Below are positions 3,026-35,028 of a DNA stretch of 41,588 bases, one piece after another. How positions within the stretch are numbered: the first letter of the stretch is position 1; every line of letters begins with the position of its first letter. The stretch lies in IMG/VR virus record IMGVR_UViG_3300044960_000659, positions 1 to 41,588 of that record, one strand, 5' to 3'. The notes under the pieces are model-generated. The model saw only the letters and a program-made list of their open reading frames with translations. It was not told the origin of the DNA and did not search any database. This DNA comes from a virus. The position numbers were made by a program, and so were the translations under genes.

Positions 3026-5017
3026 CTACAACTCGCAATAGTCACCTTCGCAGTATCTGCTCTCCTGTCCATCTGATCCGAACAACCCGAACCAGTCGAT
3101 ACCTCCGATCTCCGCTTTGCGTCGTCGATACTCGGCCTGGGTCAGGCGTTCATACGGGGGCTGCGCATACCCATGCGCGTCGTCTGAACCAGGGAGGACG
3201 GAGGTGGACTTGATGAGCGGCGCGAAGGTGGCCAGCATATAGCTGAGGTCTTTTGCCTCGTGGGGTTGAAAGGTGATGGTGTTGCTGACCATGTTGTCGG
3301 CCCAGTTCAGTTGCAACATCGCGACAAACGCGAGCTGTTCCCAGGCTGAGACTTCGCGTTGGGGACGGGTGCGGCCGTGGCCATATTCGACTGGGAACTC
3401 GAAGACCAGGGTGCGATCCGGAGCGGTGATGTCCGGCTCATTGGGCACCCCGGCCGCGATCAGCCGCTCGGCTACCGGGGAGTTCGCGTCCACCCGCACC
3501 CGACGCAGCGACCAGCGATCCCACGGGTGATGCATGCCCGGAGATACCCCGGCCAGGAGCGAAACTGTCCCCGAGGGCTTGACGGTGGTGAGCCGTACCG
3601 ATTCGGGGATGCCGAACATCCGCGCATATTTTTGGTTGACTCGTTCGACGATGCGGTAACTGTCGCGCAGGTAACGGATGAGCTGGCTAACGCCGACCAG
3701 GTCCTTCCAATCAGCCAGCCCAGACATACTAACGCCGATGCGATGGTTGCGGCTAACGACAGCGTTTGTGCTGGGGTCATGGCTCGGCATGAGCGACACC
3801 GCCATCGCGTACAAGGTCGCAAGTTCCAACACCTCCGCTAACTCTCTGAAATCGGCGCAACGAGTGGGGAACACCTCTACAAGGCAGCAGAGTTCGTGTG
3901 ACTCCAACGGGATCTCGCTGCATGGGTTGGCCCCGGTCGCCAGGTCTCGCTTCTCTTCGGTGAAGCGGCCGTATCTGGCGATGTTGCGTAGGTTAATAAA
4001 CCCCGGCTCCCCGTTACGCTCGATGCCCGGCACAATGTCCGGCAACCGGACGAACTCGTCATGTTCCTCTAACACGACCGAGTTGTTCGAGAGGAAGCTC
4101 CACCCGTGTACCGGGTCGTTCCGTTCGGGAAACACCTCCGGGTCTTTTGCGTTGATGAAGTCCCGGTCGTCGATCTTGCCCAGGGCAATCTCGGCACTGC
4201 GACGCACATTCCCAGCGACGACACAACGTCCAATCAGGTTCATCACATCCATGACCAGGATCGAGTTGGGCCGTTTGGGGCCGTTGACCTGTGCGTCCAT
4301 GATCTCGACCAGTTTCTCGTGGAGCTGGCGCAACGGCTCCGGCCCGCTGGCCGTACCACCAAAGCCGCGTATCTTCGTCCCCTTGGGACGGATTCGGCTG
4401 TAATCGAAGACGACCCGGGGCTGGTTCGGGTGTTCGTACTGGGCGAGACACCGACGTACCGACTCCACCCACCCCTCACGCGAATCGGGGATGACGTATG
4501 TCTCGGTTACCCCTTCGAGCGGTTGGAAGAAGATCCCTTTGAGGTGGTAGGTGGAAAACCCGATCCCAACCCCCAGCATGAGATGGTCCATGAGCCAGGC
4601 CGCGTCCTTGGAGAGGGTGCGTACCTCCACGTAGCCGCAGTTGTTGAGGGCGGCGTTGCCAATCTCGAATACTTTCTTTGTCCCCATCGCCCAGAGTCCG
4701 CGCCCCGGAGGGAGGAACTGCATGTTGAAGATGGCGTCGGCTGTCCTCACGGCCAGGCTATCCCAGAAGGATTCGTCCCAGGCGATGCCCATGCGCTTCA
4801 GGTGCCAGCGAATGACCGAGAACTCCCCTTCGACGACTCGGACGACCGTCTCCCAGAAGCGCTCGTTGCGTCCGTCCCACCGCTCTCGGCTGTAGGTGCG
4901 GTAGAACATGGCCTCGCTGAAGCTGCCAAACCCCCACGGGACAGGCCTATCGACGAGCTTGGCTACTTTGTTCAGCGGCAGGTGATATCGCCGGTCAATA
5001 TCAACGATATATGGCAT
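3026..5017 (-). CDS. nrdJ: Class II (B12-dependent) ribonucleoside-triphosphate reductase
   Basis: This 663-residue enzyme would reduce ribonucleotides to deoxyribonucleotides using adenosylcobalamin, supplying dNTPs without needing oxygen. It resembles the monomeric Lactobacillus leichmannii RTPR type: N364-P-C366-S-E368 matches the active-site Asn/thiyl-Cys/Glu loop, C127 (LNNCGY) and C377 match the redox pair, and C656/C661 (CEGDYC) match the C-terminal CX4C reductant pair. It is somewhat shorter than the ~740 residues of that enzyme. The ATG overlaps the upstream stop (TAATG). Its place in an operon with thyX and a DNA polymerase shows a phage that makes its own dNTPs. The only real alternative would be another class II subtype. 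Confidence 0.92.
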   Translation of the reverse strand: MPYIVDIDRRYHLPLNKVAKLVDRPVPWGFGSFSEAMFYRTYSRERWDGRNERFWETVVRVVEGEFSVIRWHLKRMGIAWDESFWDSLAVRTADAIFNMQFLPPGRGLWAMGTKKVFEIGNAALNNCGYVEVRTLSKDAAWLMDHLMLGVGIGFSTYHLKGIFFQPLEGVTETYVIPDSREGWVESVRRCLAQYEHPNQPRVVFDYSRIRPKGTKIRGFGGTASGPEPLRQLHEKLVEIMDAQVNGPKRPNSILVMDVMNLIGRCVVAGNVRRSAEIALGKIDDRDFINAKDPEVFPERNDPVHGWSFLSNNSVVLEEHDEFVRLPDIVPGIERNGEPGFINLRNIARYGRFTEEKRDLATGANPCSEIPLESHELCCLVEVFPTRCADFRELAEVLELATLYAMAVSLMPSHDPSTNAVVSRNHRIGVSMSGLADWKDLVGVSQLIRYLRDSYRIVERVNQKYARMFGIPESVRLTTVKPSGTVSLLAGVSPGMHHPWDRWSLRRVRVDANSPVAERLIAAGVPNEPDITAPDRTLVFEFPVEYGHGRTRPQREVSAWEQLAFVAMLQLNWADNMVSNTITFQPHEAKDLSYMLATFAPLIKSTSVLPGSDDAHGYAQPPYERLTQAEYRRRKAEIGGIDWFGLFGSDGQESRYCEGDYCEL

Positions 5018-9651: not shown

Positions 9652-10505
9652 CAGTCTGTCCTCATCAACGCTTGCTCAACGCCGCGATATCCGTGGGTCA
9701 CATACAACTCCGATATGTCGTTAGCTCCTTCCCAATGCGCTCGTACCGCCCAGGGGTAGTGACGCAGCAGCTCCTCCGCTGCGGCCTCGCCCGCCTCGTC
9801 CTGATCGGTCGCGATGACCAGGCGGGCGTTCCGTGGCGGGGCGTACCCGTTGCGGCGTAACGTTTCGGCGAGTGACCCCGCCCCGCTGACGGCGGTGACG
9901 GGGGCGTAGCCGAGCTGGTGCAGGACGAGCGCATCCAACTCACCTTCGCAGATGACCCGTACCCCGTTGCGCCGGGGATACGGTTGATAGAGGGCCAGCC
10001 GCTCGGCGGTGCGCTGGATGTACTTGGGCGCGTCGGGGTCGGTGTACTTCGGGTCGGCGCGGAGTTTGTACCCCAGGTGGCGTTCCCCACCGATGGGGAT
10101 GACGAAGCGTTCCCCCGTATGCCCCAGCTTCTGTTCAAGAATGGTCGCGTACCAGATGCCTCGTTGCAGGAGCCAGTCGATACGCTCCCGGCGCGGGCCG
10201 TGGACGAGTGTGTGGTGCCAGATGTCGCACATGAGCGCCGACGCGCGCGGGTCGAACGCGTTGCGCTGCCGCTCTTGCTTACGCGGGGGGAGCGGCGTCC
10301 CGGTGTACCCGATACGTTCGAGAAATGCCTGGGCTGTTTCCCCTTTGCCGCAGACGAAGCACCACGACCCGTCGGGGTAGACGGCCATGGATGGGCTGGT
10401 ATCGGCGTGGAAGGGGCACAACACCCAGAGCGGGCCGTGGCCTGCGGGTTCCCCCACCGCATAGCGGATGTCACTCGCCTTCGACGATGAGGTCGGGGCT
10501 GACAT
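9651..10505 (-). CDS. dnaG: DnaG-type DNA primase
   Basis: This 284-residue primase makes RNA primers at the fork. It has an N-terminal zinc-binding domain (C30-P-F-H33 and C49-F-V-C52) and a TOPRIM domain with E187 (CEGELDALVL) and D234/D236 (ATDQDEAGE). It is much shorter than bacterial DnaG and lacks the helicase-binding C-terminus, as in many phages. The ATG at 10505 has AGAAGG nine bases before it and overlaps the polymerase gene by 35 bases. The helicase is encoded separately a few genes upstream. Confidence 0.9.
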   Translation of the reverse strand: MSAPTSSSKASDIRYAVGEPAGHGPLWVLCPFHADTSPSMAVYPDGSWCFVCGKGETAQAFLERIGYTGTPLPPRKQERQRNAFDPRASALMCDIWHHTLVHGPRRERIDWLLQRGIWYATILEQKLGHTGERFVIPIGGERHLGYKLRADPKYTDPDAPKYIQRTAERLALYQPYPRRNGVRVICEGELDALVLHQLGYAPVTAVSGAGSLAETLRRNGYAPPRNARLVIATDQDEAGEAAAEELLRHYPWAVRAHWEGANDISELYVTHGYRGVEQALMRTD

Positions 10506-15684: not shown

Positions 15685-15712
15685 ATTATACCACAGCGCG
15701 GAGGGGTAGCAA
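15685..15712 (-). promoter_or_regulatory. Sigma-70-like promoter of the replication operon
   Basis: On the minus strand TTGCTA (15712-15707) and a perfect TATAAT (15690-15685) are separated by 16 bases, giving a start near 15678. A GGGTA/TACCC inverted repeat (15704-15717) covers the -35 box and may be an operator. Confidence 0.75.
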
Positions 15713-15750
15713 TACCCAACCCGGGGTTTTTGGCTTGTAGACGCGGAAAC

Positions 15751-15800
15751 CAAGTGGCAACGCGGGGCAAGTGGCAGAGCAAGTGGCAATTTGCCACTTG
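15751..15800. repeat. CAAGTGGCA iterons upstream of the replication operon
   Basis: Direct copies of CAAGTGGCA begin at 15751, 15768 and 15780, and an inverted copy TTGCCACTTG occupies 15791-15800; the last two make a near-continuous palindrome with one central base. They lie 40-90 bases upstream of the -35 box. Such clusters are typical binding sites for a replication initiator or transcription regulator. Confidence 0.75.
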
Positions 15801-15828
15801 ATCCGGCCTATAAGTAGAGAGGGCGTGA

Positions 15829-15858
15829 GGGGGAGGGGGGACTACAGGGGGGTGGGGG
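15829..15858 (+). other. G-quadruplex motif
   Basis: Four runs of G (5, 6, 6 and 5 bases at 15829-15833, 15835-15840, 15847-15852 and 15854-15858) are separated by loops A, ACTACA and T. This is an ideal intramolecular G4 on the plus strand, between the iterons and the hairpin array. Confidence 0.7.
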
Positions 15859-15865
15859 AGACGAA

Positions 15866-16380
15866 GCTACTTTCCCTGTTCTGACTACCAGGAAGAACAG
15901 GGAAAGTAGCGAGTAGCAGTAGTAGAACAGATCGTATAGCCTCTGTTCTATATACTATAGGCTATGAAACTACAGCTACAGCCTATAGAGTATAGGCTGT
16001 AGCTTCTGTTATCCTGCTGTATCTGTCTGATGGTTATATCTGTCTGATAGCCATCATCCTTCTTCTGTCGTTCGTTTTTATTTCTGTTGTTTAGCTAGCT
16101 ATCGTTGTTAGCTAGCTAAACGTTGTTATGTATGTATTGAGTGTTAGGCCATACTCTCATAGCCTTGTAGCAGACACTCTCTCGTACTAACAGGTACGAG
16201 AGAGTGTCTGCTGTAACTACTAGCTTCTGTATCATGTATAGCCTTGAGTATACAGCTAAACTCTAGTAGTTCGTATACAAAACGCCGTCTCGTATAGTCG
16301 AGACGGCGTTTTGTACGACAGAAGTAGAATACAGTACCTGTATTCTATTTTCCTGTTATAGCACTGAGTGCTGTAGCAGG
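15866..16380. repeat. Right hairpin array (about ten inverted repeats)
   Basis: No gene is seen from 15633 to 16554. Perfect arms: 15866-15882/15894-15910 (17 bases), 15923-15931/15942-15950, 15974-15987/15991-16004 (14, loop 3), 16089-16101/16109-16121 (13), 16169-16187/16194-16212 (19), 16215-16223/16263-16271 enclosing 16227-16232/16250-16255, 16276-16292/16299-16315 (17), and 16325-16334/16338-16347. With G-U pairs: 16029-16037/16047-16055 and 16352-16365/16367-16380. Stem sequences differ, though short words (CTGTA, TATAG, AGAACAG) recur. It may be a structured RNA, an origin, or stacked terminators. Confidence 0.85.
16276..16315. terminator. Bidirectional intrinsic terminator
   Basis: The 17-base stem has a GC core (ACGCCGTCTCG) with AAAA on the 5' side and TTTT on the 3' side and a 6-base loop, so it can terminate in either direction. 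It is well placed to stop leftward transcripts from the repressor gene. Confidence 0.65.
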
Positions 16381-16406
16381 TACTAGCATACGTCATGTGT
16401 TTGTCC

Positions 16407-16471
16407 TGCCAGGTGTAACCGGGTGCTGTCGAGGTATCGGCAGGGTGGGTTCGACTCCCACCGCTGGCACC
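16407..16471 (+). other. Short tRNA-like element
   Basis: A perfect T-arm is present: stem GTGGG (16445-16449), loop TTCGACT, stem CCCAC (16457-16461). It is followed by CGCTGGC-A-CC, whose last part pairs with TGCCAG at 16407-16412 as a five- to six-base acceptor stem. Only ~30 bases separate the acceptor and T-arm, about 11 too few for a normal D-arm and anticodon arm, and no clear anticodon loop is found. It is therefore a tRNA mimic, a degenerate tRNA, or a 3' tRNA fragment such as an attachment site; no integrase is visible. Confidence 0.5.
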
Positions 16472-16479
16472 GGCGTCCA

Positions 16480-16545
16480 ACTCGTAGCCGCTCACCTTGG
16501 GGCGGGGTGCGCTCGATCTATGTATCTATCCGAGCGGCTACGAGT
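16480..16545. repeat. Inverted repeat beside the repressor gene
   Basis: Perfect 14-base arms ACTCGTAGCCGCTC (16480-16493) and GAGCGGCTACGAGT (16532-16545) enclose 38 bases, ten bases past the stop codon of the XRE-type gene. There is no T-tract; it could stabilise the transcript end or flank a small insertion. Confidence 0.6.
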
Positions 16546-16554
16546 GTGGATGCG

Positions 16555-17013
16555 CTACGTGGCGACGCGAGAGAGGCGCGGGGCGGCCGCGATCCGAGCT
16601 GCCCAACGGGGGAGGCGCGGGTCTTTTGCGTCGCTGGTTTCGCGTTCGCGCCAGCGTTGGCTGGCGGCAACGGCGGACGCCAGCATTGCCGCGAGGATGT
16701 ACTGCTCCTCTTCGTCGCTCTGGTAGAAGAGGTTCTGGATGTCGGTGAGGACACGACGCGCCTCGGGGACGATGCGCTCCTCGTCCTCCTCGGCGGGCCA
16801 CAGCCCCATCAGGACGGCCATCTGGGTGGGGGTGAACCCGTAGTAGCGTCCGATGGCGACGATGGTCTCCATCGCCGGGCGTTCGATCCGGGCCTCTTCC
16901 AGGTTGTCGTACTGGTCCTTGGTGATGCCCGCGCCGCGATACACGTCGGCGACGGTCTGGTCATGCCGAAGCGCGCGCAGCACCTCGGCGAAACGTTCTT
17001 TGTCGAATGCCAC
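16555..17013 (-). CDS. XRE-family transcriptional regulator (putative phage repressor)
   Basis: The 152-residue protein has a Cro/C1-type HTH in the first ~65 residues (FAEVLRALRHDQTVADVYRGAGITKDQYDNLEEAR ... METIVAIGRYYGF). This is followed by an acidic linker and a helical C-terminus with no visible Ser/Lys self-cleaving peptidase. The start is GTG with GAAAGGT upstream. It lies between the leftward replication operon and the rightward late block, beside operator-like half-sites, so it probably controls the switch between them. A lysogeny repressor is possible, but no integrase or partition gene is visible. Confidence 0.8.
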   Translation of the reverse strand: MAFDKERFAEVLRALRHDQTVADVYRGAGITKDQYDNLEEARIERPAMETIVAIGRYYGFTPTQMAVLMGLWPAEEDEERIVPEARRVLTDIQNLFYQSDEEEQYILAAMLASAVAASQRWRERETSDAKDPRLPRWAARIAAAPRLSRVAT

Positions 17014-27771: not shown

Positions 27772-30700
27772 ATGAGTACACCGTACACGTTCCTTGATGA
27801 GATCAAGGAACGGCAGCGCCGCCGCGCCGAGTCGTACCAGGCGGGTATTCAGGCGGCGGACCGGGCGGCGCGGAACGCGGTGCCGGAGCCGGAGGAGCCG
27901 CAGGACCGGGGGGTGCTGGACCAGACGCTGGGTGCGCTGGGGACGGCCGCTTCTGCTGCGGGGACGTTCTTTGACTTGGGGAATCGGTTCATCACCCGCC
28001 CGGCGATTGGGTTTTTGGCGAAGGAAGTGATCGCGCCGCTGGAGTTGGCTGGGGTCCCGTTGGGGGATAGCCCGGAGAAGGCGCGGGCGATCCGGGACGC
28101 CCCGTCGTACACAGCCGCGTTCCGTGAGGCGTATAAGGACAAGCAGTACACGCGCATCGGGACGGAGATTGCCGGCGACCCGTTGAACCTGGTCGGTATC
28201 GGGTTGCCTGTCAAGGCGGCGAAGGCATACCAGGCGGGACGCCTGGCTGCCGAGGGCGCGATGGATGCGAAGGCGGCGGCGGCGTTGGCGCGAGGCCTAC
28301 CGCTACCAAAGGGCCGGGGCATAGTGTTGGCCGAAGCGGCGGATGAGGTGGCGAACCGTATCCTGGCGGCTCCGGTGGCGGTGCCGTGGGCGGTGGCGAA
28401 GCGCGCGCAACGGCGGTTCGCGCCGGATATGTTTGGCCTGTCCGACAAGGTGAAGCTCCTGCGCGAGGGGCGGTATATGGAACGCGCGCTGGAGAAGCTG
28501 GGGTTGTTCGAGCCGGACTTCGCCAGCGAGACGGGGCAACAGTTGTTGCCGTTGGGTCCGCCGAAGCCGGATGCGCGTTTCCCGCTTGAGCGCCGCAAGC
28601 GTCGGATGCGGGTGCGCCCGATGACGCCGGAGGAGCGCAAGCTGCGTAACGAGATGCAGTCGCAGTTCGCGCAGCGGTTCGGGCAGAAGCCGTATACACA
28701 ACCGGGGTTCGTGAGTCCGACGGGGGATGTGCAGCTCGATTTCTTCCGTCCGCCGGAGGACCTGGTGGGGGACCTGCTCCAACGCCCGAATACGAACACG
28801 ATTTCGGCGGCGACGGTGTCGAAGGAGTTGGGCTGGCCGCGCGGTGACGCGGCCAAGGTGTTGAATGCGTGGGTGCGGAGAGGAGCGCTCTCCGCGCCGA
28901 ACAAGAACGGGATTTACAAGATCCTCAAGCGTCCGAGCGAGGTTCAGGCGGAGGCGGCGACCCGCGTGGGTTGGTCGTTTGTGCCACGGGGGGCTGACCA
29001 GAAGCTGACCACGGCGGTGGAGCAGGAGACGCAGGAACGGCTGCGCGAGGCGCGCTTGACGGGGGAGGTGCGTACCCCGACGGCGCATGAACTGCGGCGT
29101 AAGTACGATCTGGGGTACCAGGAGTCGTTCCAGGTGCGGGACGAGGTGGTGCGGAACCTGAACCGGCAGCGGGAGGCTGGGCAGCGGGTGGTGGCGTCGC
29201 GGGTGCGCCAGCCGATGACGGATGCTGAGGTAGAGCAGCAAGTCCGCAACTTCATCACAGGCAGCAACCGGGTACAGCAGACGACGTCGAAGCGGCGGGG
29301 TGAGCGGTTTGTGCTGATCTCGCACCTGCGCCAGGCGGTGCCGGACGCGACCGACCGGCAGCTGTTCGACACGATCATCAAGTTGAATAACGAGGGGTGG
29401 TTCACGCCGAACAGCATTGATGCCCAGCGTGGTATCCCCGGCAACGCCTTTGGGAAGCTGACGCTTACTGACGCTGTCCCCTTCGAGGGGGAGGGGATCG
29501 CGACGATTGGCCCGATCGAGAACGGCTCGTTCAGTTTGGATGAGTTGGGGGAGAAGGCGCGGGCGGTGCAGGAACGGCTGCGTTCCGGGGTGTTGGACCC
29601 TGGTTTGGCGGCCGACCGGCGGCGCTTGCGCGCGCAGATGCAGCGGCAGTATGGGGACGCTGGGCGTGAGCTGGCGGATACGATCTTCGGCCCGGTCCCG
29701 GAGACGCTGCGGGCGGATGAGGCGGTGTTGGTCAATTGGGTGCGGAACCAGTCCGGGAAGCCGCTTGACGAGGTGTCGTATGGCTCGGAGAACATGCGCA
29801 GGGCGATTCAGGCGGCGATTCGGAAACTGGGGCTGCGGGAGCGGATACCGCGTGGGGCGACACCGGCGCAGACATTCGAGGCAGTACGCGACGCGATCAA
29901 TACCGGGCTGGTTGAGGATATTGTGGATACCGACCCGGAGCAGCAGGCGTTACAACAGATTTTGCGCTGGATGGATGTGGTTGACCCGGAGACGGTTACG
30001 CCGCGCAGGCGCACACCGAAGCGGGTGCTGGAGGCGGCGCAGTACCTGAATGCGAACCATGGGTACGCCTTGAACCTGTCGGGGAAGCTGGCGGATGACT
30101 TCGAGCGGGTACGGGCGTGGCTCGGGGAGTCGGGGGACGAAGGCGTGGTCGATGCGGCTACCCGGCAGGTAGGCGCGGAGGCGATGCCGCAGGAACAGGC
30201 GCGTGTTCCGGAGCCGGAGGTGCAGCCTCAGGTCGCGCCGCAGGCTGAGATCGCGCCGCAGCCTGAGGTTGTGCCGGAACGGCCGGTTGAACAGGCGTTG
30301 CCCGAGGTGGCAGAACCGTCGTCGCTGGCGGACCTGGAGCCGATTGACCTGACGCGGGGCGTCCCAACGACATCGGATACGCGGGTGCAGCGGGGGGATA
30401 TCCTGGTCTACAACGGGCAGCTCTACATGGCGGACCGGGTGAACGGTCTCGTTGTTACGGCGGATGCGATCACCCCCGGAGCCGAGCGGTTCCGCTCGTT
30501 CACGTTGGGGCGGGACCAGCTCCTGCACACGGGGAGAAACTTCTGGGATATCGTGAGTAGGCTGCCCAAAGGTACGTCGCATGATGCGATCAAGATGACG
30601 CTTTCCGGGGACTGGAAGGGACTTGAACAAGCGCTTCTACGCAACAAACGCAACGCTATCGAGTCGGAGATGCGTCGAATCGATGATGAGATAGGTCTTC

Positions 30701-33700
30701 TGGCGTTCCGATTCGATCCTGAAGCCGCTCGGGAGGTTGAGCGTCTCAAGGCCCGGCGTAATGAGTTGCAGCAAGAGCTGAATGCTACGCGGACTCCGGA
30801 AGAGATTCTTCAGGCGAATCGTCAGTCTTTCCGGAACCGGGCGAGGGATACGGACACGGATGAGTTTCGGCAGCTGTCTCGCCCTGCGCAGGAGGCTGTT
30901 CGGCGGGCCAGTGGGGCGAAACGACTCTTCGATTCTGAGATGAGTATGTTGACGCCTGAAGAGCGGCGATTCGTCAGGGACACGCATCTTTCGCTTGATG
31001 GGTTGAAGACGAAGAAGTCGAGAAACGCTGTCAGCCGTGTACGTAAACAATATCAGGAGTACAAAGAACTAGACCTTGAAGCTTCAAGGCTGCTTGTCAG
31101 CGAGTCGGAGCGTTTATTCCCTTCTCCAGGTCCGTTTGCTAACGTGACCGAAGAGAGTATTCTTCCTCCAAATGCGACGAAGCAACAAGTAGAAGAGAAG
31201 CTGAAAGAGATACGTGACCGGATGTCCTCGTTGCGTTATAAGATAAGTGAACCGGGTGTTGACGACGAATACCGGCATTTGTCTACGCTGCATGACTCGT
31301 TGTTACGGCGTCTCGATGCGTTCAAGAGTTCCGAGCAGATCCTTCGTGATCGAATCAATAGCTTCATCAGCAAGGCCGAGAACGTCGAAAGCGCTGAATT
31401 CGCTCAGCTTTCTCCAGAGACGCAGGAGGCGGTGCGCCGTATGCAGCAGGCGTATCAGAAGTATAATGAAGCGGTCGGGGCGATCCGTTCACGGCAAGAA
31501 CATATGGCAGCAGAATCAGCGGAAGCTAATTTTGCTGCTGCTTTGGCTGATCTACCTACAGAAGCGGCGCGGAAACGGGCCAGGACGCTGAGGAAGACGT
31601 TTGCCGCGTATTCAGCAGCGAGGGACGTTTCTGATTCGCTGTTGCGCGCTGAGGCTGAGCGGATTATCCAGGCGGGGAACGCACCACAGGTACGGGCGGC
31701 AGGACGAGCGAATGATGAGCGGCTGGGCGATGTGGACCTGGGCGAGGATGTCGTCGCCGCTCCGAGCGTCCTTCGGTTGAATGATCTGGAACAGCGGGCC
31801 GCTCGATTCATCACTGAGGTGACTGGCGCGAATATCCTATCCGAGCGGGCGAACAAGTTCTTTGGTCCGGCGCTTGAGATGATCCGCTGGGCGCGTAAGG
31901 CGTCGGATGCGGATGTGCTGGCGGTTGCGCGGCGTGAGCAGGACCCGCCATTCCGGCATGTCGGCGCTCCGGGGAGTGTGGAGTTCGATGCGGGCGAGGA
32001 GATTGCCCGGCGCATCGCGCGCGACGAAGCGGAGGCTCGTGGCCTGCGGGTGTTTCCGCAGGCGTCGGAGGAGGTTACGCCCGCTGCGGAGGAGGTTGTG
32101 CCTGCACCCGAGCCGGAGGCCGCGCCGTTGCCTGAGCGGGCGGAGCCGGAGGCTGAGCCGGGTGTCGGGACACAGGCGGACACTGGGCCGGTCTACCACC
32201 CAGCGGAACAACTTCAGTTGACCTTCTCTGGTGGGACGCGGTTTGTCCAGGACGAGATCGACGCTTGGAAGCAGCAGGCGCTGGCGCGGCAGCGGGAGCG
32301 GGCGCGGGAGGAGCTGGATCGACAGTTCCTGGAGACGCAGCCGGTGCAGGGGCCGCGTATCCCGCCGGTTGAGGCTCCGGATGCGTATGACTCGGTCGGC
32401 TCGGTGGTGGACCGGATCGCCCGGGAGACGGGACGCCAGGCGGATGACCCGGAGGTGGTGCAGGTCCGGGAGATCCTTACCGAGGCGGTGGGGGACTACC
32501 CGGAACAGTTCCAGGCGTTCGAGTTGTGGGAGCCGGGGGAGTTCCGCGAGGCGATCGAGCGCGCGTTTGCTGAGCCGGACACGGCGCGGGAGACGCTCTC
32601 GCTGGCGTTGCGCGACCTGGGGCTGACGATGGAGGCGGCAGGAATCCTGTCGCCGGTGTTCCGCTCGTTGGCGCGCTTGCCGGGGGGCAAGCGGCCGGTG
32701 GAGCGTAGCCGCGCATTTGGCGGGACCGGGGTGTTGACCCGGGAGGAGCGTGAGGCGCTGGAGCACTTCCGCACCTCGGAGCTGGGGGTGAAGCTGGAGC
32801 AGAACTGGCGCAAGTTCCAGGACACGGTGACGGAACTGGCCGCTGAGATCAACCAGCGCAACCCGTTGTCGATGCCGGTGGGGCCGTTGATGACGGTCGG
32901 GGACGTGTTGCGGCTGGTTCCGTATGCCAAGCAGAGCCAGCGTAACGTGATTCTGTCGTTTCTGCGGGCAGCGCATATCAACATCTCCGATCTCCAGGTC
33001 GGGACGGCGGACGGGTCGTTGCGCGTGTTGAGCGACCTGCACCCGAACATGACCGAGGAGGAGCGACTGGTGCGGGCGGCCGAGTATGCGTCCAAACCGG
33101 GGTCGATTGTGATCTTCGCGGCGCAGGATCGTCCGATCGGCAAGGCGGCCCGCGAGGGGGCGGTGATCGCCTACCAGAAGCAGCTTGCCAAAGAGATGGG
33201 GATCAAGTGGGATGAGAAGCCCCGGGGGTTGATTGCCGACCTCCCCAAGGCCTGGCGCGAACAGGCGCTGCTGTCGGTGCGCCGCTTCACGGTGAATGTG
33301 CTTGACATGAGCGTGAAGTCGGCCATCTTCGGGATCAATCCCTTGGTGCCGAAGGAATCGGCCGAGATGTACGCGCAGCGGTACGGTATTGCCGTCCCGG
33401 AAGAGGCGTTGATGGGCGGCGAGGCGACGGCGCTGGTCGAGGACATCCCCGCGTCGTGGGATGCCCGCGTGGGGCGGTTCCTCGCGGGGTTTAACCGCGC
33501 GCGACAGGCGCAGGGGGTGCGGTTGCGCGACCTGCCGTCGGAGTTCCAGGCGGTGCAGTCCGATGTGGCGTTGGAGCGGTTGTTGCCGGGCCGGTTGGGC
33601 CGTTGGGCTGGGCTGGCGGTGCGCTTCGACCGCTACGTCAACCGTGGGGTGGAGAATGCGTTCCGTAAGGCTGCCTGGCGTTTCGCGCACCAGGAGTATA

Positions 33701-35028
33701 TGGAGAAGCTCTTCCTCCCCCGCTTCCGCAAGGAGGTGGAGCGGCTGCTGCCGCCGTATCTCCAGGCGCGGGAGGATGTGCTGCGACAGCTCGACCTGGG
33801 TCCGTTTACGGCGGAGCAGCTGCGTGAGGCGTTGCAACGTGGCGGCGCGGACGCCGACACGGTGCGGTCGCTGGTGGAGACCTGGCGGCGTGGGCTGGAT
33901 GAGGCCAGCCAACGCGGCGTTGATATGTCGAACAAGATCCACTTCCCGATTGAGGATGAGCGGGTCATCGAGGAACGGTTGCGGTTGTCGAGCTGGCTGC
34001 CGTTCCACTGGTGGGCGACGCGGAACATCCCGTTCTATCTGGACACGCTGGCCGCGAACCCGCTGATCCTGCGTATTTGGCAGACGTATGACCAGGTGGC
34101 GGACGAGGATCGGAAGGAACGAGGCCTGACGAGCCGGTTTACCGGTATGTTGGGGACGCGGCTGGGGTTTATGGAGACGTTGTTTGGCCGGGATGGGATG
34201 GTCTACTTCAACCCGATGGTGGCACTGTCCATCGCCGACCAGACGCGGCCTCGGTATATCTCGGCGGATGCTCCGGCGTATGGCAAGGTGTTGAACCTGG
34301 TCGGGGCAGCCGGTATTTCTCCCGCCCCGTGGGTTCAGATTCCGCTGACGATGGTGGGGGTGTACGGGGCCGATGCTGAGGCTCCCGGGTTGTTGCGCAC
34401 ATCCGGGATGATCGAATCGTTCACGGGGGTGAATCCAGAGCGTCTGACCCTGATCCCGCAGATCGTGGATCGCGGGCAGCGCGTGTTGTTGGGGAAGCGT
34501 TCGACGACGCTGACTGGTTCGCATTATCGCGATTACGAGATCAACAAACGTATTGCGGAGTTGAGTATCGAGGAGACGGGGCGGGCGAACCACCCGGATT
34601 ATCTGCGGGCGATGAATGACCCGACGAGTCCGATTTACCGGCGGGCCGAGCGCGATGTGCGCCGGGCGCAGCAGATCGGGAGTGTGTGGGGGTTCTTCGC
34701 GCCGATACCGATGAAATTCCTTTCCGACACCGAGGCTGGTATTCGCGCCTCGGCGGCTGGCCTTCCGGAGCGCCTCCCGGATGAGGTCAGCAATCAACTG
34801 GCGAACGCGGGGCATCCGGCGACAGGGTATTGGAACGTTGCGGATGATAACCGCGCCGCGCAGATCTATGCGGCTCTCGCGATGTCACGCGGGCGCACAC
34901 CGCACTGGTCGAGGATACGCCGGTACGAGGCACAGGCACAGTACCCGTCGTATGCGGAGTACCTCAACTGGTTGCAGACACGCGCTCCGGGGGCGGATAC
35001 GGGAGTGAGGACGTTTTTATCTGAGTAG
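27772..35028 (+). CDS. Giant virion protein (2,418 residues), probable internal/ejection protein
   Basis: By size and position, between a transglycosylase gene and the scaffold gene, this is most likely injected or lines the ejection channel. AAGGAGG precedes the ATG. Visible parts: hydrophobic stretch ~50-95; winged-helix-like segments ~344-385 (ISAATVSKELGW ... VRRGALS) and ~512-565 (ISHLRQAVPD); a Pro/Glu/Val linker ~805-850; a coiled-coil island ~960-1300 with two diverged repeats (EEIL ... EFRQLS / EQIL ... EFAQLS); another acidic linker ~1430-1475; and an aromatic, hydrophobic C-terminal third (about 2,070-2,220). No polymerase motifs like those of phage N4 virion RNA polymerase, and no enzyme motif, were found. 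Confidence 0.8.
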   Translation: MSTPYTFLDEIKERQRRRAESYQAGIQAADRAARNAVPEPEEPQDRGVLDQTLGALGTAASAAGTFFDLGNRFITRPAIGFLAKEVIAPLELAGVPLGDSPEKARAIRDAPSYTAAFREAYKDKQYTRIGTEIAGDPLNLVGIGLPVKAAKAYQAGRLAAEGAMDAKAAAALARGLPLPKGRGIVLAEAADEVANRILAAPVAVPWAVAKRAQRRFAPDMFGLSDKVKLLREGRYMERALEKLGLFEPDFASETGQQLLPLGPPKPDARFPLERRKRRMRVRPMTPEERKLRNEMQSQFAQRFGQKPYTQPGFVSPTGDVQLDFFRPPEDLVGDLLQRPNTNTISAATVSKELGWPRGDAAKVLNAWVRRGALSAPNKNGIYKILKRPSEVQAEAATRVGWSFVPRGADQKLTTAVEQETQERLREARLTGEVRTPTAHELRRKYDLGYQESFQVRDEVVRNLNRQREAGQRVVASRVRQPMTDAEVEQQVRNFITGSNRVQQTTSKRRGERFVLISHLRQAVPDATDRQLFDTIIKLNNEGWFTPNSIDAQRGIPGNAFGKLTLTDAVPFEGEGIATIGPIENGSFSLDELGEKARAVQERLRSGVLDPGLAADRRRLRAQMQRQYGDAGRELADTIFGPVPETLRADEAVLVNWVRNQSGKPLDEVSYGSENMRRAIQAAIRKLGLRERIPRGATPAQTFEAVRDAINTGLVEDIVDTDPEQQALQQILRWMDVVDPETVTPRRRTPKRVLEAAQYLNANHGYALNLSGKLADDFERVRAWLGESGDEGVVDAATRQVGAEAMPQEQARVPEPEVQPQVAPQAEIAPQPEVVPERPVEQALPEVAEPSSLADLEPIDLTRGVPTTSDTRVQRGDILVYNGQLYMADRVNGLVVTADAITPGAERFRSFTLGRDQLLHTGRNFWDIVSRLPKGTSHDAIKMTLSGDWKGLEQALLRNKRNAIESEMRRIDDEIGLLAFRFDPEAAREVERLKARRNELQQELNATRTPEEILQANRQSFRNRARDTDTDEFRQLSRPAQEAVRRASGAKRLFDSEMSMLTPEERRFVRDTHLSLDGLKTKKSRNAVSRVRKQYQEYKELDLEASRLLVSESERLFPSPGPFANVTEESILPPNATKQQVEEKLKEIRDRMSSLRYKISEPGVDDEYRHLSTLHDSLLRRLDAFKSSEQILRDRINSFISKAENVESAEFAQLSPETQEAVRRMQQAYQKYNEAVGAIRSRQEHMAAESAEANFAAALADLPTEAARKRARTLRKTFAAYSAARDVSDSLLRAEAERIIQAGNAPQVRAAGRANDERLGDVDLGEDVVAAPSVLRLNDLEQRAARFITEVTGANILSERANKFFGPALEMIRWARKASDADVLAVARREQDPPFRHVGAPGSVEFDAGEEIARRIARDEAEARGLRVFPQASEEVTPAAEEVVPAPEPEAAPLPERAEPEAEPGVGTQADTGPVYHPAEQLQLTFSGGTRFVQDEIDAWKQQALARQRERAREELDRQFLETQPVQGPRIPPVEAPDAYDSVGSVVDRIARETGRQADDPEVVQVREILTEAVGDYPEQFQAFELWEPGEFREAIERAFAEPDTARETLSLALRDLGLTMEAAGILSPVFRSLARLPGGKRPVERSRAFGGTGVLTREEREALEHFRTSELGVKLEQNWRKFQDTVTELAAEINQRNPLSMPVGPLMTVGDVLRLVPYAKQSQRNVILSFLRAAHINISDLQVGTADGSLRVLSDLHPNMTEEERLVRAAEYASKPGSIVIFAAQDRPIGKAAREGAVIAYQKQLAKEMGIKWDEKPRGLIADLPKAWREQALLSVRRFTVNVLDMSVKSAIFGINPLVPKESAEMYAQRYGIAVPEEALMGGEATALVEDIPASWDARVGRFLAGFNRARQAQGVRLRDLPSEFQAVQSDVALERLLPGRLGRWAGLAVRFDRYVNRGVENAFRKAAWRFAHQEYMEKLFLPRFRKEVERLLPPYLQAREDVLRQLDLGPFTAEQLREALQRGGADADTVRSLVETWRRGLDEASQRGVDMSNKIHFPIEDERVIEERLRLSSWLPFHWWATRNIPFYLDTLAANPLILRIWQTYDQVADEDRKERGLTSRFTGMLGTRLGFMETLFGRDGMVYFNPMVALSIADQTRPRYISADAPAYGKVLNLVGAAGISPAPWVQIPLTMVGVYGADAEAPGLLRTSGMIESFTGVNPERLTLIPQIVDRGQRVLLGKRSTTLTGSHYRDYEINKRIAELSIEETGRANHPDYLRAMNDPTSPIYRRAERDVRRAQQIGSVWGFFAPIPMKFLSDTEAGIRASAAGLPERLPDEVSNQLANAGHPATGYWNVADDNRAAQIYAALAMSRGRTPHWSRIRRYEAQAQYPSYAEYLNWLQTRAPGADTGVRTFLSE
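30650..31690 (+). other. Compositional island inside the giant gene
   Basis: Within the giant protein gene about 1 kb is clearly AT-richer than its surroundings: the line 31021-31080 is about 42% GC by hand count, against about 75% for 33481-33540. It encodes charged coiled coils with two diverged repeat units (about 960-1070 and 1140-1250) that each read as helix, xEEIL/xEQIL, SF, EFxQLS, QEAVRR. This suggests an inserted, duplicated segment. Confidence 0.6.

Follow-up and report, generated by a model that had tools for sequence, protein, structure and literature searches.

The hairpin array at 15866-16380 of a 41,588-nt stretch of viral DNA (IMG/VR record IMGVR_UViG_3300044960_000659, the whole of which is called the window below) probably corresponds to a previously undescribed non-coding RNA of a phage. 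This putative assignment comes from sequence comparison and is made because dense hairpins occupy the site that in related phages is taken up by 24-33 tRNA genes downstream of a shared control region. A preliminary description of the window had proposed either an undescribed non-coding RNA or an origin-linked structure; the first option is now the better supported, given that no gene and no Rfam family is found there and that the site is that of the relatives' tRNAs, and the second has gained no support.

The hairpin array

Between 15866 and 16380 lie seven hairpins with perfectly paired arms of 9-19 bp around loops of 3-11 nt, against a shuffle mean of 0.13 (arms of at least 8, loops of at most 12). 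With loops of up to 40, the region 15860-16550 forms seven stems that pair perfectly over 10 bp or more, and none was obtained in 40 dinucleotide shuffles. Its MFE is -323 kcal/mol on the + strand (shuffle mean -214; z -18.7) and -292 kcal/mol on the - strand (z -13.8). No gene fits the array stretch, and elsewhere in the 41.6-kb window comparable hairpin clusters are restricted to a left array and the G+C-rich gene beside it. The left array, already reported in the preliminary description, does exist at 30-496, at the contig end, with perfect hairpins of up to 20 bp; it includes a repeated unit GCCGGTAGGC-4-GCCTACCGGC at 215-238 and 258-281, and the fold of 1-380 has a z of -14.8.

Along the + strand, H1 (15866-15910) has 17 bp and a loop of 11, H2 (15922-15951) 10 bp with one G-U, H3 (15974-16004) 14 bp and a loop of 3, and H4 (16028-16056) 10 bp with one U-G, its inner stem being shifted in a second fold. 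H5 (16088-16122) has 13-14 bp and a loop of 7, H6 (16165-16216) reaches 24 bp including three G-U around a perfect core of 19 bp, and H7 (16215-16271) has a closing stem of 9 bp and a 39-nt loop containing an inner stem. H8 (16276-16315), a 17-bp stem with A4/T4 flanks, is by inspection a candidate bidirectional terminator serving both strands. The outer part of H9 (16316-16357, ~17 bp, 2-nt bulge) competes with the adjoining H10 (16352-16380, 13 bp, two G-U), and H11 (16480-16545, 14 bp, 38-nt loop) sits where the islands of the relatives end. A possible long-range helix of 10 bp between 16062-16071 and 16315-16324 encloses H5-H8; it is found once against a shuffle mean of 0.05, a chance level that recurring CTTCTGT words lift.

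Listed by start, the perfect arms measure 17 (15866), 17 (16276), 14 (15974), 14 (16480, loop 38), 13 (16089), 10 (16325) and 9 nt (15923), and the 19-nt arms placed earlier at 16169-16187 and 16194-16212 are indeed there and 100% complementary. The first estimate of about ten inverted repeats is fair, because G-U pairing lengthens the 16169 stem and yields two adjacent stems (16321-16351 and 16352-16380); ten hairpins are counted once G-U pairs and longer loops are allowed, and several abut end to end. As had been noticed, the arms differ from one another and short words recur; because of this mutual difference, duplication of a single hairpin was rejected as the source of the array. The range first given, 15866-16545, is right as far as the hairpins go, but the proper limit of the array is 15866-16380; a tRNA-like element that had escaped notice occupies 16407-16471. 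The control region upstream of the array (15685-15858) had also been missed. Bridge mismatches did not settle the strand (G-U versus A-C, 4 versus 2; coding control, 29 versus 11), and a strand call from G-U counts (11 versus 2, two folds) was dropped, the controlled count being weak and coding sequence being equally biased.

The site and its control region in related phages

The window is a member of an undescribed clade of uncultured IMG/VR phages (40-53% identity for TerL, 40-49% for the portal), which was found by TerL alignment (A1) and then by portal alignment (A2). Viral contigs scanned with the single sequences of P0001, polA, MCP, TerL and DnaB yielded no relatives, an alignment search with P0001 returned just two already-known loci, DNA searches of phage and plasmid collections gave no match, and the GenBank phage records searched contained no close member of the clade. 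The scan of genome contigs yielded no portal relative and only TerL matches of at most 41% over full length, none accompanied by further window genes where checked, so that no host can be named. The array sequence is shared by none of the relatives found. Elsewhere in the window, 3026-5017 encodes a class II ribonucleotide reductase that is closest to one of an Actinomycetia phage (38.7%) and had no match in the clade records searched, which are mostly fragments. A 2418-aa frame at 27772-35028, flanked by the SLT/NlpC gene and the gene of the major head protein, had no PHROG match and probably specifies an internal virion or tape-measure-like protein.

On its left the site is bordered by P0001 (14922-15632, - strand), the first gene of the leftward block, which has homologues in contigs L096 and G004; beyond the array lies a convergent Cro/C1-type HTH gene (P0002, 16555-17013, - strand), and by eye an HTH-like gene takes the equivalent place in L017/L106. 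The leftward genes of G004, exo-primase-polA-RusA-DnaB-285-P0001, are collinear with those of the window, and P0001 is followed there by a rightward island of 33 tRNA genes and then by the '201' homologue, TerL and portal. In L096, 26 tRNAs separate P0001 from the '141' homologue, L103 (24) and L098 and L099 (27 each, in the contig part covered) carry theirs ahead of '201', TerL and portal, and in L095 the last six tRNAs of the island are seen. This site, between leftward replication genes and rightward structural genes, is syntenic with the array, and the island tRNAs are all on the + strand, like the tRNA-like element of the window (one weak minus call in L103 overlaps a plus one). The G004 island, on a 48.8-kb phage contig (L144 reverse complement, L099), packs its genes for most isotypes into ~7.1 kb. 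L101 and L104 have no tRNAs at the site. On the TerL tree, the tRNA-bearing phages group together as a single clade, the window stands just outside it (83/85) and L101 and L104 are further off. With the window outside the tRNA-bearing clade, both loss of an island and its original absence would therefore fit.

The control region starts with a candidate leftward promoter for the replication block (15685-15712, - strand; TTGCTA-16-TATAAT, identified by consensus match alone, at 10/12 positions), in which TG precedes the second hexamer. An operator-like cluster at 15751-15800 comprises CAAGTGGCAA at 15751 and 15780, CAAGTGGCAG at 15768 and an inverted TTGCCACTTG at 15791; G004 has, in the interval from P0001 to the island, the 10-mer CAAGTGGCAA at 10184 and the inverted TTGCCACTTG at 10217, and in the equivalent place L096 shows two copies of CAAGTCCCA (1587, 1628) and one GGGACTT. 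A candidate rightward -10 (TATAAG, 15809-15814, + strand) was read from the sequence, with no good -35 at 16-18 bp; L101 has TTGCCA-17-TATACT in the equivalent place. Downstream lies a G-rich leader of four tracts (GGGGGAGGGGGGACTACAGGGGGGTGGGGG, 15829-15858, + strand), a potential G-quadruplex. The four-tract motif (G runs of four or more, separated by short loops) has a single copy in the window, both strands considered, and a single copy in 33.4 kb of G004, and the two leaders, GGGGGAGGGGGGACTACAGGGGGGTGGGGG and GGGGAGGGGGATCAGGGGGAGGGG, are in the identical syntenic place. Two-run G versions are present in L096 (1684), L101 (~6433) and L104 (4399), and the leader G-run cluster ranks top on the + strand in the window, G004 and L096. 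Another multi-run G cluster is found at the head of contig L015 (1-50), on the opposite, minus strand. The control region is a conserved regulatory or RNA element rather than a recent copy, since protein identity among these phages is ~30-50%.

The same region could be viewed as a replication origin, in which RNA transcribed from a divergent promoter would form an R-loop at the G-tract leader and prime the leading strand, and hairpins of single-stranded DNA would load primase or helicase. G-rich RNA is an established component of priming R-loops, as in ColE1 RNA II and mitochondrial CSB II, and the leader could support one. The unique G-tract element lies 3' of a candidate promoter and between divergent blocks, at a site that adjoins the replication genes and is AT-rich relative to the genome. 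However, GC skew has no sharp switch at the site, iterons were not seen apart from the CAAGTGGCAA cluster between the divergent candidate promoters, and the hairpins are not a conserved part of an origin, because the relatives have tRNA genes behind the leader instead. We thus consider an origin unlikely.

The tRNA-like element and predicted structured RNA in the islands

The tRNA-like element (16407-16471, + strand) was recognized by its fold, by a D-armless model and by relaxed ARAGORN. It has an acceptor TGCCAG/CTGGCA, a T arm GGTGGG-TTCGACT-CCCACC, ACC on the 3' side and an extra 7-bp stem at the place of the anticodon or variable arm, but no D arm; its acceptor-T helix bears the T-loop signature GGTTCGANTCC, whose sole occurrence in the window is at 16448 on the + strand. 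ARAGORN with default settings called no tRNA in the window. The relaxed match covers 16376-16471 (0 in 300 shuffles of the region), with a loop of 8 nt and a poor acceptor; U33 is missing from the D-armless model, and the Rfam tRNA-Sec model scores 22.6 bits, below its gathering threshold of 47. A canonical cloverleaf with D arm, 7-nt anticodon loop and U33 is absent from 16407-16471, and a decoding role is unlikely. The element shares its strand with the tRNAs of the relatives and lies near the position of their last one, and an 18-nt stretch of it is 94% identical to the terminal tRNA-Met of L095, although T arms are generally conserved. Its best reading is a tRNA remnant near the 3' end of the putative RNA.

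Candidate structured RNA also occurs within the islands. The spacers of the relatives contain 8 short perfect hairpins in 12,429 nt versus 1.8 expected. A hairpin GCTAT..GACCGGCCAGTC..ATAGC in the spacer between tRNA-Ser(tga) and tRNA-Cys(gca) is conserved in L095 (1360-1674), L103 (5574-5842) and L098 (5736-6042), L098 having G-C in place of an A-U pair, and its covarying outer stem makes a separate island RNA possible. The array of the window is not this element, the core GACCGGCCAGTC being absent from it. A large terminator-like hairpin follows the last tRNA in L095 (1973-2052) and L103 (6073-6148), with a shared inner CTTCGATACCGCAGAGT.TTTACTCCTT. The G004 stretch from the leader to the first tRNA folds with a z of -6.8, and the structure behind the G-tract leader of L101 and L104 is weak (z -2.3 and -2.0). 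Because of the spacer hairpin excess, the Ser-Cys hairpin and the G004 leader-to-tRNA fold, structured RNA beside tRNAs seems to be a feature of the clade, of which the array of the window would be the extreme case; long hairpins of its kind are present in none of the relatives.

The synteny with tRNA islands, the one degenerate tRNA that remains and the presence of some hairpins in the relatives' spacers might suggest that the array is just the functionless remnant of a decayed island and its processing spacers. Yet decay would neither create nor preserve perfect hairpins of 17-19 bp, tRNA arms being 4-7 bp, and the density in the window (7 hairpins in 755 nt) far exceeds that of the relatives' spacers (8 in 12,429 nt), which makes this remnant quite improbable.

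The array could also be an antitermination leader or a cluster of terminators, with put-like or terminator hairpins deciding the passage of RNA polymerase rightward into the late genes, since H8 resembles a bidirectional terminator and, in L095 and L103, a strong terminator-like hairpin separates the last tRNA from the late genes. However, put sites consist of two stems and the array of ten, an HTH gene on the opposite strand separates the array from the late genes, and terminator flanks are seen at one stem only. A terminator scan flagged two array hairpins (15974-16004 and 16088-16122) versus 1.6 in shuffles, so without excess, and G+C-rich stems followed by a T run were not found above chance in the array. 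The earlier view that only 16276-16315 looks like a terminator agrees with inspection (A4...T4 flanks), but not with the scan, which picked those two other stems at chance level. An array of ordinary terminators of small genes, the refutation envisaged at the outset, is unlikely because such flanks occur at one stem only and the intervals between stems contain no small genes. Altogether, a role in antitermination or termination is distinctly improbable. That the array acts at the DNA level, as protein-binding palindromes or cruciforms rather than RNA, is extremely improbable: perfect arms do fold on either strand, but the same site is a transcription unit of RNA genes in the relatives, and the arms are not repeated binding sites because they mutually differ.

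The proposed RNA and known systems

On balance, we lean towards reading the array as the clade's untranslated unit between replication and structural genes, a rightward RNA in which hairpins stand instead of tRNAs. Synteny, the strand of the tRNA-like element, the shared control region and the extreme hairpin density are directly observed; counterpoints are that the candidate rightward promoter has no clear -35 and that the tRNA-free L101 and L104 keep the G-tract leader yet have weak structure behind it. Transcription would start from a promoter near 15810, with the RNA 5' end at or just before the G-tract leader, which may form a G-quadruplex that shields that end. The RNA would fold into consecutive long hairpins, with H5-H8 perhaps inside a multibranch domain closed by 16062-16071/16315-16324. 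If transcription continues beyond H8, host RNase P could cut at the tRNA-like element, which would create the 3' end; otherwise H8 would end the RNA at ~16319, the tRNA-like element then being reached by read-through alone. H8 may in this way stop transcription ahead of the tRNA-like element and split the unit, and in the opposite direction may end the HTH transcript. The predicted product is a stable structured RNA of ~490-580 nt, similar to ROOL or GOLLD, and as a guess it might serve as a scaffold or sequester RNases or RNA-binding proteins of the host. That it represents a new class of large RNA, combining a G-quadruplex leader, a ten-hairpin multibranch fold, a 3' end set by RNase P at a D-armless tRNA-like element and the promoter that in sister phages serves a near-complete set of tRNAs, is a tentative and rather doubtful proposal.

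ROOL and GOLLD are large RNAs, and ROOL can reach high abundance; to our knowledge, the function of neither is known. No Rfam family reached its gathering threshold in the whole window, ROOL and GOLLD included, and at E<=5 neither was found in 15700-16700, where the sub-threshold matches were mostly chance-level microRNA models. One of the sub-threshold candidates, Pseudomonadales-1 (31.8 bits, gathering 68), was rejected, its stem pairs merely coinciding with H1 and H2. The array thus differs from ROOL and GOLLD in lacking an Rfam match and in consisting mainly of long perfect hairpins, whereas those RNAs have conserved multi-helix folds. A homo-oligomeric RNA cage is a further feature that defines a ROOL or GOLLD RNA. 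As to context, the window is of a phage and, although it has no tRNA itself, the relatives' island is at the exact site. ROOL and GOLLD are phage RNAs that often lie near tRNA islands, and the putative RNA of the window would share with them a length of ~0.5-0.8 kb, a dense multi-stem fold and its encoding by a phage (PMC12286853). Among the systems compared, it is these phage RNAs that the putative RNA appears to resemble most closely (PMC12286853).

Locus, strand and control region are also those of the relatives' islands of 24-33 tRNAs, in place of which the window has hairpins, a single D-armless tRNA-like element and no canonical tRNA. The tRNA cluster of phage T4 includes the stable RNAs C and D. 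The acceptor and T arms and the missing D stem recall the tRNA-like domain of tmRNA, but ARAGORN called no tmRNA, which would join such a domain to a tag reading frame, in the window. Finally, in the tRNA-like mascRNA and menRNA of MALAT1 and MEN-beta, 3' ends are formed by RNase P (PMC11693755). There, too, a tRNA-like element with an acceptor-T helix lies downstream of a long non-coding RNA; those RNAs are eukaryotic and unrelated, and in the window cleavage is a prediction only and H8 may halt transcription earlier.

What would be new here is a structured RNA that occupies the very position of the tRNA island, under a control region common to tRNA-bearing sisters. If the RNA is real, comparing sister phages that have tRNAs with those that lack them would directly test the contribution of such RNAs, including whether they replace, protect or process phage tRNAs.
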